From NCBI GenBank assembly GCA_017436915.1, contig JAFSCE010000032.1, positions 1 to 64,000 of the forward strand: DNA of 64,000 nucleotides, written 5' to 3'. This document shows, one piece after another, positions 14,833-17,533 of this stretch (position 1 is the first letter of the stretch; the number at the start of each line of letters is the position of its first letter). Made by a program: the position numbers and the translations under genes. The notes under the pieces are model-generated. The model made no database searches. It worked only from the letters and a program-made list of their open reading frames with translations, and had not been told where the DNA came from. Source of the stretch: Clostridia bacterium. GTDB lineage: Bacteria > Bacillota > Clostridia > Oscillospirales > Acutalibacteraceae.

Positions 14833-16176
14833 ATGGAATCCATCAAAGAAGCTTGGTCAGAAATATTGGCCTATTTAAAAAACCAGTCGGATATCAGCCA
14901 AGTTGCTTATAACACTTGGATCAGTTGCATTGAACCGTGTTCCATTGAAGATAATGCGGTCGTTGTTTTAGTGCGCACCAATTTTCAGCGCGGTATCATC
15001 GAAGGACAATATGCAGACAGAATCAAAACTGCCGTGCGCGAAGTGCTGGGCATTCCGTTTGATTTAAAAATCTTATCGGAAGAAGATCAAAAAGAAAAAG
15101 CTGATGTAAAACCGGATTCCAATTTTCCGCAAGCGGAAAATTTTGTAGATCAAAACCCTGTTACGTCGGATTATTCGTTTGATAATTTCGTGGTCGGCCC
15201 TTCTAATAAACTTGCCCACGCTGCCTCGCAGGCGGTTGCCAATAAACCGGCCCGTGATTTTAATCCCTTGTTCATTTACAGCGATTCCGGTCTTGGTAAA
15301 ACCCACTTAATGTTTGCCATCTGTAATGAAATCCGCCGTCGTGACCCGTCACAAAAGGTGTTGTTCACCAAAGCGGAATTTATGACCACTGAATTGATTG
15401 AAGCAATTCGCAACGGTTCAACTGCAGAGTTTCGCGCGAAGTATCGTCACGTCGATATGTTATTGATCGACGATATTCAATTTATTTCGGGAAAACAAAG
15501 TACGCAGGAAGAATTTTTCCATACGTTCGATGAATTGCATCAAGCGGGAAAACAAATCGTGCTCACCTCCGACCGTCCCCCGCGTGAAATTGCTACTTTG
15601 GAAGAGCGCTTACGTACTCGTTTTGAAATGGGACTTATGGCGGATATTCAGCCGCCGGATTTTGAAACGCGTATTGCCATCATCAAAGGCAAGGCCCAGC
15701 TGTTAAATATGAACATCAGCGATGATATCGTTAATTATCTGGCAACACATCTGAAGAAAAACGTTCGTCAGCTCGAAGGTGCCGTGCGCCGTATTCATGC
15801 ACAGTGTATGTTGGAAGGTGATAATCCTACCCTTCTAACCGCTCAAGCGGCCATCCGCGATATTAAAAGCGATAATCAACCGGTACCGATCACCGTGGAA
15901 CGGATTATTACAGAGGTTGCCCGTACCATGTCGGTAACCGCAGACGATATTCGTTCCAATAAACATTCCGCCACGATTTCCGCGGCACGTCAGGTTGCCA
16001 TTTATGTTGTTCGCAACGTAACAAGTTTGCCGATGAAAGCCATCGGTGAAGAATTTGGCGGGCGTGATCATTCCACTGTGGTATATGCCTTACAAAAGGT
16101 AGAAAAACGCATGGAAACCGACACGACGTTTAACGGCATGATAAAAGATATTATTAAAAATATTTCGGAAAACTAA
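14833..16176 (+). CDS. dnaA: Chromosomal replication initiator protein DnaA
   Basis: DnaA (447 aa) binds origin sites and, with ATP, unwinds oriC and loads the helicase. Domain I is at residues 1-80, a short linker follows, the AAA+ domain runs from about 110 to 320 and the DNA-binding domain covers the C-terminal 95 residues. The Walker A loop reads SDSGLGKT (150-157), with Ser in place of the usual first Gly. Walker B is LLIDDIQF. The signature helix GGRDHST is at 410-416 (D412, H413, S414). The position that corresponds to E. coli Arg399, a minor-groove contact to the 5' end of the DnaA box, is His378 in SNKHSATISAARQ. Both changes deserve attention because nearby DnaA boxes lack the usual TTA start. 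It is the first gene of the rightward leading-strand cluster. Confidence 0.98.
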   Translation: MESIKEAWSEILAYLKNQSDISQVAYNTWISCIEPCSIEDNAVVVLVRTNFQRGIIEGQYADRIKTAVREVLGIPFDLKILSEEDQKEKADVKPDSNFPQAENFVDQNPVTSDYSFDNFVVGPSNKLAHAASQAVANKPARDFNPLFIYSDSGLGKTHLMFAICNEIRRRDPSQKVLFTKAEFMTTELIEAIRNGSTAEFRAKYRHVDMLLIDDIQFISGKQSTQEEFFHTFDELHQAGKQIVLTSDRPPREIATLEERLRTRFEMGLMADIQPPDFETRIAIIKGKAQLLNMNISDDIVNYLATHLKKNVRQLEGAVRRIHAQCMLEGDNPTLLTAQAAIRDIKSDNQPVPITVERIITEVARTMSVTADDIRSNKHSATISAARQVAIYVVRNVTSLPMKAIGEEFGGRDHSTVVYALQKVEKRMETDTTFNGMIKDIIKNISEN

Positions 16177-16429
16177 GTGAAAAATATGTGAAACACAGTG
16201 GAAAGTTTTTCACATTTTATAAACATTCCACTCACACGTTTCAACACGATGTTGAGATTAAAATATCTTTCACATTTTTCCCCGCAACGTTCCCCTTACT
16301 TTACACAAATCAAAATACCAAAATCTGCGGAAAATACGCACTATTTTAAACCTTTCAACAATTCCACAAAGACTACTAATTACTACTACTAAAGAAAGAT
16401 ATATTTTTATAAAAGAAAGGACGATCCTT
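16177..16429 (+). other. Probable origin of replication (oriC) between dnaA and dnaN
   Basis: This AT-rich, gene-free gap holds DnaA-box-like motifs: AGTGGAAAG (16197-16205), TTCCAC (16226-16231) and AATTCCACA (16360-16368). Four bases after the last box comes ACTACTAATTACTACTACTA (16372-16391). This matches the box-then-DnaA-trio arrangement of the Bacillus subtilis basal unwinding element, which also sits in the dnaA-dnaN gap. An AT-rich stretch follows (16391-16415). The consensus TTATCCACA is absent. Gene direction also switches in this area. Assignment rests on position and motif pattern, not on a computed skew. Confidence 0.75.
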
Positions 16430-17533
16430 ATGCGAATTACCTGTGCAAGACAATCCTTAGTCGATGCTGTGAATAATGTGCAAAGAGGTGTCGCATCTAA
16501 ATCTGCTTTGCCGGCACTGGAAGGCATTTTACTCAAAGCGTCTGCATCTTCCTTATTTTTAGCAGGATACGATATGGAACTCGGTATTACCACGACCATT
16601 GAGGCCGATGTTGAAGAAGCCGGTGAATTGGTACTGACCGCGAAATTGTTTTCTGAAATTATTCGCAAATTACCGGAAGAAGAAATTACGATTGTTTCCA
16701 ACGATCGTAATAATACCGTTATCCGCAGCGGTAATTCGGAATTTACCATCATGGGTTTTTCCTCGGCCGATTATCCGGAATTACCTACCATCAATGACGG
16801 CGCCGCGCTTACCATGCAACAAAACGTGCTGAAAAGCATGATTCGTCAAACGTTGTTTGCGGTGGCACAGACCGATACCCGCCCGATCCATACCGGTGTG
16901 CAGTTTGAAATTGCAGATAACACGTTGCGTTTGGTTGCGGTAGACGGATCTCGTTTGGCAATGCGTTGTGAAGAAATCAAGAGCAGCGAAACTTTACAAT
17001 TTGTGGTACCCGGCAAGACGTTAAGCGAAGTTCTTAAACTTTTAAGTGATGAAGAGGAACCGTTGTACGTAACGGTTGGTTCTCGCCACATTATTATGGA
17101 AATCGGCGGTTATTCGGTGTTTTCTCGTTTGCTGGAAGGTGACTTTTTGCCGTATCGAAAAGCGATTCCGGTACAAACGACTACAAAGATCCGTGTGAAG
17201 ACCCGCGAAATGATTGACGCCGTTGACCGCGCCTCGCTGGTGATCAGCGACCGTATTAAATCTCCGTTGATCTGCCGCTTTAAGGACGATCAGATTTATC
17301 TTTCTTGTATTACGGCACTCGGTAGTGTAAACGAAATTTTGTCAGTCGGCATGGAAGGTCGTCCGGAAGAAATGGGCTTTAACTGCCGTTTCTTGTTAGA
17401 CGCTTTACGTAATACCGAAAGCGATGAAATTTTGATCGAGCTCAACGGTGCACAAGCCCCGATGAAAATTATTCCGACCTCCGGCGAAAATTTCTTATTC
17501 TTGGTATTGCCGGTTAAATTAAAACGCGTATGA
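16430..17533 (+). CDS. dnaN: DNA polymerase III subunit beta (sliding clamp)
   Basis: Ring-shaped clamp (367 aa, normal length) that holds DNA polymerase III and many repair factors on DNA. Three successive clamp folds of about 120 residues are present. The N-terminus (MRITCARQSLVDAVNNVQRGV) and the C-terminal peptide-binding pocket ending (LVLPVKLKRV) are typical. A GAAAGGACG site precedes the ATG. The stop codon overlaps the start of the yaaA-like gene. It follows the probable origin directly. Confidence 0.97.
   Translation: MRITCARQSLVDAVNNVQRGVASKSALPALEGILLKASASSLFLAGYDMELGITTTIEADVEEAGELVLTAKLFSEIIRKLPEEEITIVSNDRNNTVIRSGNSEFTIMGFSSADYPELPTINDGAALTMQQNVLKSMIRQTLFAVAQTDTRPIHTGVQFEIADNTLRLVAVDGSRLAMRCEEIKSSETLQFVVPGKTLSEVLKLLSDEEEPLYVTVGSRHIIMEIGGYSVFSRLLEGDFLPYRKAIPVQTTTKIRVKTREMIDAVDRASLVISDRIKSPLICRFKDDQIYLSCITALGSVNEILSVGMEGRPEEMGFNCRFLLDALRNTESDEILIELNGAQAPMKIIPTSGENFLFLVLPVKLKRV

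Follow-up and report, generated by a model that had tools for sequence, protein, structure and literature searches.

DnaA-trios were reportedly first described by Richardson et al. in 2016, and the current model assigns one DnaA protomer to each trinucleotide of a continuous array. In the basal unwinding system (BUS) of Bacillus subtilis incC, CTA repeats run toward dnaN and are separated by a 4-nt spacer from two overlapping, co-oriented DnaA boxes. A search that demanded at least three contiguous trios predicted a BUS in 1755 of 2070 species (excerpt of PMC8287927). Trios also occur in the DNA unwinding element (DUE) of Thermotoga maritima, where they are combined with an eTrio (excerpt of PMC10316083), and a DnaD recognition element with the motif 5'-TnnT-3' has been described on the strand opposite to the trios (excerpt of PMC10201434).

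Here, we analyze the dnaA-dnaN gap in a 64-kb stretch of clostridial DNA (the window), which is contig C31 of a 1.50-Mb genome in 38 contigs. The layout of the gap resembles the incC BUS, as compared via the Bacillus loci L088 and L103, but both boxes are three mismatches off, the spacer reads AAGA and the array is broken by one base. The three-part design of the predicted BUS is present as well, but the site is not called by a simplified form of the published rule, i.e. a box with at most two mismatches followed by at least three contiguous trios (compared with the excerpt of PMC8287927). The window shares with the T. maritima DUE trios in more than one putatively functional block, although the latter has a different box type and a TTATT module (excerpt of PMC10316083). 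TnnT motifs opposite to the trios recall the DnaD recognition element (excerpt of PMC10201434), but the TnnT pair is missing in 8 of the 18 species that share the break. By comparison of sequences, the BUS design of this origin is known, whereas the shared one-base offset of the trio array is new. In the literature searched, which left most subscription journals outside its coverage, we found no description of out-of-register trio arrays and no papers on the DnaA boxes of this bacterial group.

The dnaA-dnaN gap as a chromosomal origin

The gap comprises 253 bp with an A+T content of 69% (Table 1). By DnaA, the nearest named relatives are Clostridia, e.g. Anaerotruncus colihominis and Acutalibacter, with approximately 50-54% identity. 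Within the 64-kb window, the GC skew changes from negative to positive at about 16 kb, and the cumulative skew of this window, as distinct from the whole genome, has its minimum at 16894, inside dnaN and approximately 0.5 kb off the gap. Five CTA triplets lie within 19 nt, a density not reached once when the gap was dinucleotide-shuffled 5000 times, and this is the largest such cluster in the 64 kb on either strand. Boxes of the TTTTCCACA type with at most two mismatches occur ten times in the gap versus 2.0 expected (0 of 1000 shuffles), while boxes of the canonical TTATCCACA type occur three times versus 1.2 expected (P 0.11). A DnaA-box cluster above chance is therefore found with the former motif, but not with the latter. 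The original prediction had described an origin with a DnaA-trio unwinding module and had proposed the position of the skew minimum as its check. Within the window, both the sign change and the minimum lie near the gap, and skew, CTA cluster and box layout bear the prediction out. By these features, the gap (16177-16429) is most probably a real chromosomal origin with a predicted BUS and, as origins go, it is an ordinary one.

Table 1. Features of the dnaA-dnaN region, numbered from the first base of the window.
Feature	Position	Strand	Basis or remark
dnaA	14833..16176	+	ORF, 447 aa
dnaA-dnaN gap, origin (incC-type)	16177..16429	+	sequence, GC skew, shuffle statistics
Upstream box TTTTTCACA	16206..16214	+	-167 from array
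Upstream box GTTTCAACA, forward arm of fixed-position inverted pair	16238..16246	+	-135
Upstream box ATCTCAACA, reverse arm	16250..16258	-	-123; clade peak of reverse boxes at -124 ± 1
Upstream box TCTTTCACA	16266..16274	+	-107
Box at the position of Bacillus DnaA-box #6, CTTTCAACA	16352..16360	+	layout shared with relatives and Bacillus loci
Box at the position of DnaA-box #7, AATTCCACA, box of the original prediction	16360..16368	+	sequence, layout in relatives
4-nt spacer AAGA	16369..16372	+	compared with relatives
Proximal DnaA-trios CTACTA, sharing the register of the boxes	16373..16378	+	motif 3'-GAT-5' on the - strand
4-nt linker ATTA, phase break	16379..16382	+	one base longer than a trio
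Distal trios CTACTACTA, +1 out of register	16383..16391	+	CTA positions, relatives
dnaN	16430..17533	+	ORF, 367 aa; dnaN of relatives found past the gap

Relatives used for comparison

DnaA was found in 8 of 9 genomes of the window's genus, in all genomes of three sister genera (12/12, 3/3 and 1/1) and in 116 of 120 family genomes, nearly all of them one per genus; a named set of 80 loci was kept in addition. The clade, as used here, consists of the eight sites of the window's genus and 17 sites of the genera g104, g53, g68 and g72. In total, 211 loci with a dnaA match were used to locate the gap and gave 210 site calls (25 clade, 105 other family, 80 named), with no site from L008, in which dnaA is limited to its front part. 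The named and family sets seem to have at least one organism in common (L051 and L158). A filter that demanded a score of at least 12 and CTA as first trio was passed by 167 sites (25 clade, 77 other family, 65 named); the remaining 43 (28 family, 15 named) were excluded. Sites were located by boxes, spacer and the two leading trios, without regard to the distal trios, and the phase counts given below are therefore not built into the site calls.

Boxes and spacer of the unwinding region

The window contains the BUS order of tandem co-oriented boxes, short spacer and trios, and CTTTCAACA and AATTCCACA overlap by one base in the layout of the Bacillus boxes #6 and #7. All eight sites called in the genus have tandem boxes with a one-base overlap and a 4-nt spacer before the first CTA. 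The same layout is seen at the 17 sister-genus sites, where the boxes abut or overlap by one base, and in the Bacillus loci L088 and L103, with TTATCCACA as first and ATATTCACA as second box. Judged by this layout, AATTCCACA (16360-16368) is the counterpart of Bacillus box #7, which is also degenerate in the Bacillus loci, and the essential #6 position is taken by CTTTCAACA (16352-16360). The original prediction had located AATTCCACA correctly but treated it as the key box, and it is the second box, CTTTCAACA, that holds the #6 position. In vitro, strand separation at the B. subtilis origin required the upstream box but not the box at the #7 position (excerpt of PMC8287927).

The GC-rich spacer of the Bacillus BUS is missing, as predicted: the commonest spacer among the relatives is GCCC, and AAGA has one G/C in four. 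With at most one G/C at 15 of 167 sites, such a spacer is unusual but not unique. A spacer without GC also has a precedent, because changes in the GC-rich sequence of the Helicobacter pylori oriC did not stop unwinding in vitro (excerpt of PMC8235120).

Both boxes of the window deviate from TTATCCACA at three positions, and the gap contains no exact copy of this motif, which agrees with the original prediction. However, the comparison of gaps in relatives identifies non-consensus boxes mostly as a lineage-wide trait. Exact TTATCCACA is present in 0 of 25 clade gaps, in 5 of 105 other family gaps and in 28 of 80 named gaps, and TTTTC[CA]AC-type boxes occupy the same fixed places in near relatives and in the family. 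The T at box position 3 fits the E. coli-type consensus TTWTNCACA that was used for Clostridioides difficile (excerpt of PMC7561715), and the locus is therefore an origin with weak boxes, not one with a novel box code. In the G000 genome, the consensus box TTATNCACA occurs 57 times versus 43 times for the reversed pattern, figures that are too close for any inference. The idea that the gap offers a natural test of box strictness holds only weakly, because its boxes are typical for the lineage, the box that was judged occupies the #7 position and the loss of the GC-rich spacer has a precedent.

Further upstream, the family has a box map of its own, with forward boxes at approximately -158, -136 and -98 and reverse boxes at approximately -124 from the array, unlike named Bacilli and other Clostridia; in the named set, forward boxes are found at -76 and -64 and reverse boxes at -56. 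Matches were summed over three neighboring offsets, by which one site may count repeatedly, and were compared with 2000 jittered sets. Counted in this way, forward boxes at -158 ± 1 gave 44 matches over 77 family sites (jittered maximum 24), and reverse boxes at -124 ± 1 gave 22 matches over 77 family sites (jittered maximum 13) and 16 over 25 clade sites (jittered maximum 8). In the window, the forward box at 16238 and the reverse box at 16250 produce the inverted pair TCAACA-CGA-TGTTGA at 16241-16255. Its arms tend to co-vary in relatives (TTAACA/TGTTAA, TTCACA/TGTGAA and TCCACC/GGTGGA at -132 to -134), with arm identity at 121 of 175 positions versus 110.9 after shuffling (P 0.013, the rows being related). 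L207, L215, L216 and L217, four species of one sister genus, contain a second inverted pair of strong boxes at a near-fixed place, about -337 to -345 from the array, which is of the TTCCACC...GGTGGAA type with stems of 7-8.

A one-base phase break in the trio array

The CTA triplets of the window start at 16373, 16376, 16383, 16386 and 16389, i.e. at +0, +3, +10, +13 and +16. The distal CTAs at +10/+13/+16 thus replace the in-register positions +9/+12/+15, and the array lacks one continuous 3-nt trio register. The 4-nt spacer and the CTAs up to 16391 had been recognized in the original prediction, but as one regular run, which is in fact broken at 16379-16382. This overlooked break of one base is a genuine variant, which relatives share and which lends itself to testing.

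Scoring the phase from CTAs at +6 to +16, a distal CTA exclusively in the +1 phase was found at 18 of the 25 clade sites, including the window (slip species), while the other seven are in register. Outside the clade, 129 of 142 sites have a distal CTA, which is in register in 127; the two exceptions are L198, with the +1 phase only but with a spacer called one base short that may be mis-anchored, and L206, with the +2 phase only. Fisher's test for slip in the clade versus the others gives 7e-17 when the related rows are treated as independent. On a DnaA+DnaN tree with 32 rows, the slip state changes at least four times. We read these changes as gains in the window's sub-clade (L001, L002, L003, L009), in L007 and in the genera g53 and g104, and as a return to register in L209/L210, with deeper placements being unsure on long branches. 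Two of the seven clade members in register, L209 and L210, belong to a slip genus, and the phase break is therefore not fixed.

The linkers of the slip arrays read ATTA, AATA, ACTA, TAGA, TGTA, TATA, TGGA and CGGA. With eight different linkers and the distal CTA at +10 and/or +13, the linker length is kept while its letters vary. In L009, the second trio is mutated as well. In-phase runs are short: contiguous NTN trios in phase number no more than two in 17 of 18 slip arrays, the exception being the window with three, and at least three are present at 112 of 142 sites outside the clade. Eight of the 18 slip species have a weak distal block, which reads CTACGA in seven and ACGACTA in L007. A strict box-plus-array scan across the order detected the slip pattern in 1 of 295 genomes, the window's own, and the in-register pattern in 18 of 295, although this pattern misses most true arrays and some in-register matches resemble repetitive coding sequence, such as the seven CAACAACAACTACTAC-like matches in G332 alone.

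These deviations may influence how such origins are counted. The published BUS rule permits a species-specific box motif; our simplified form instead scored TTATCCACA (or TTTTCCACA) and searched for a box with at most two mismatches, 0-16 bp and then three NTN on the top strand. With TTATCCACA, the site in the window is not called, both boxes having three mismatches, and a BUS is called at 2/18 slip, 3/7 other clade, 40/77 family and 41/65 named sites; the TTTTCCACA motif raises these figures to 7/18, 5/7, 59/77 and 44/65, respectively. Contiguous NAN trios are present in the window in the minimum number of three (CTA CTA ATT in phase), besides the distal CTACTACTA. As the simplified rule misses the window, counts of BUS-positive origins may run low in this lineage.

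DnaA residues and a candidate DnaD-type protein

The B. subtilis structure places bases one and two of a trio in a pocket between neighboring DnaA protomers, with the third facing away, and the residues in contact with the trio are defined for B. subtilis DnaA (excerpt of PMC10721633). Of these residues, I190, I193, R202, K222 and E228 are retained by the DnaA of the window, in which T replaces N187 and Q replaces E223. Replacing Asn187 by alanine leaves B. subtilis DnaA severely defective (excerpt of PMC10721633). Thr in place of Asn187, which contacts the trio adenine, is found in L001-L003, i.e. in the window and the two nearest species, and these also have the G/C-poor spacers AAGA, CACA and GACA. 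As a correlate of slip, N187T was rejected, since the slip sister genera keep N. Arg202 (L103 numbering), a guanine contact of the trio, is replaced by His in 53 of the 105 remaining family members, and their arrays are mostly still CTA-rich.

Compared with Bacillus, domain IV of DnaA in this lineage shows P386 to A, T415 to S and H419 to Y (L103 numbering), and box position 3 is T instead of A. This position changed at least 12 times on a tree with 162 rows. An independent-pairs test of the best-scoring columns 352, 339 and 347, a set without 386, 415 and 419, did not support co-variation between domain IV and box, with a mean of 0.2-1.4 of 9 independent pairs in agreement, and we make no claim of co-adaptation.

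On the strand opposite to the trios, TnnT motifs are located at +1, +4, +8, +11 and +14 in the window, which includes the pair of a DnaD recognition element. A single TnnT within the 20-nt array was found in 8 of 18 slip species (L007, L012, L207, L215, L216, L217, L219 and L220). At G000:C4:31174-31638, an open frame encodes 323 aa and has two domain matches to DnaB_2 (DnaD-type); its product is a candidate helicase-loading partner.

Models for the broken array

We consider it probable that the gap is a chromosomal origin with 16352-16391 as its BUS and that the DnaA filament most likely steps over the extra base to reach the distal trios. DnaA would bind the tandem overlapping weak boxes at 16352-16368, assisted by the upstream box cluster at 16206-16274 with its lineage-specific fixed distances. 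From there, it would be transferred to the minus strand at the two trios that are in register (16373-16378), and opening would begin at these trios. Past the second trio, the filament would most likely skip one extra uncaptured base and proceed along the distal trios (16383-16391) in the shifted register. Such an uncaptured base is conceivable because the third trio base faces away from the protein (excerpt of PMC10721633). What the sequences show directly are the individual parts with their fixed spacing and conservation, and a one-base slip that recurs; from these we infer binding of DnaA at the boxes and trios, the start of unwinding at this site and a single filament across the break. Thr at the position of Asn187, the short in-phase runs (17/18), the weak distal blocks (8/18) and the in-register L209/L210 speak against the proposal.

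If only the nearest two or three trios mattered, the distal register would be released and an indel beyond them would be neutral drift. The proximal trios are the most critical ones in B. subtilis (excerpt of PMC10201434), and the phase state flips inside one genus, in L209/L210 versus their neighbors. Drift, however, predicts scatter, and the off-register CTAs of the clade, at +7 in one site, +10 in 17, +13 in nine and +16 in one, all belong to one phase, while 127 of 129 arrays elsewhere stay in phase 0. We therefore regard drift as possible but doubtful.

The distal block could alternatively be kept for DnaD, which would read 5'-TnnT-3' on the opposite strand at free spacing, such that the register may slip. 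DnaD needs two TnnT motifs at a flexible distance, and distal mutation spares unwinding by DnaA (excerpt of PMC10201434). The five TnnT positions of the window and the protein with two DnaB_2 matches encoded in G000 would suit this role. Nonetheless, a single TnnT is left in 8 of 18 slip species, on which ground the DnaD element was rejected as the full cause of the slip, and the slip has occurred to exactly one phase; this explanation is unlikely.

We consider it improbable that the site is adequately described by the initial view, in which a Bacillus-like element has one degenerate box, lacks the GC spacer and informs on box strictness. Both boxes do have three mismatches to TTATCCACA and fail the limit of two, and the gap is without exact consensus, but a tandem pair is present, weak boxes are found lineage-wide and the simplified search rule also fails at the BUS of 37 of 77 other family sites. 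That the distal CTACTA belongs to a dnaN promoter or leader instead of the origin is very improbable and was dismissed as unsupported, because, despite a weak -10 likeness by eye of TACTAT or TACGAT in some sister species, no sigma-70-like site was found on the + strand at 16100-16460 and dnaN follows the start of the array at distances between 34 and 201 across the clade.

Implications for the DnaA filament

Returning to a filament that steps over the extra base, a more general but less probable version can be offered tentatively: the DnaA filament on single-stranded origin DNA may not need to hold one 3-nt register. The array, with two blocks lying a trio plus one base apart, would have been gained repeatedly and maintained at exactly this offset, and its second block would be read either after skipping one base or by another DnaA assembly located on the same helical face, 10 bp from the first. 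The 18 slip species and their seven in-register close relatives provide a panel for asking whether register, helical phase or the first two trios matter. Thus, the one-base break amounts to a natural experiment on how strictly the DnaA filament must keep its 3-nt register.
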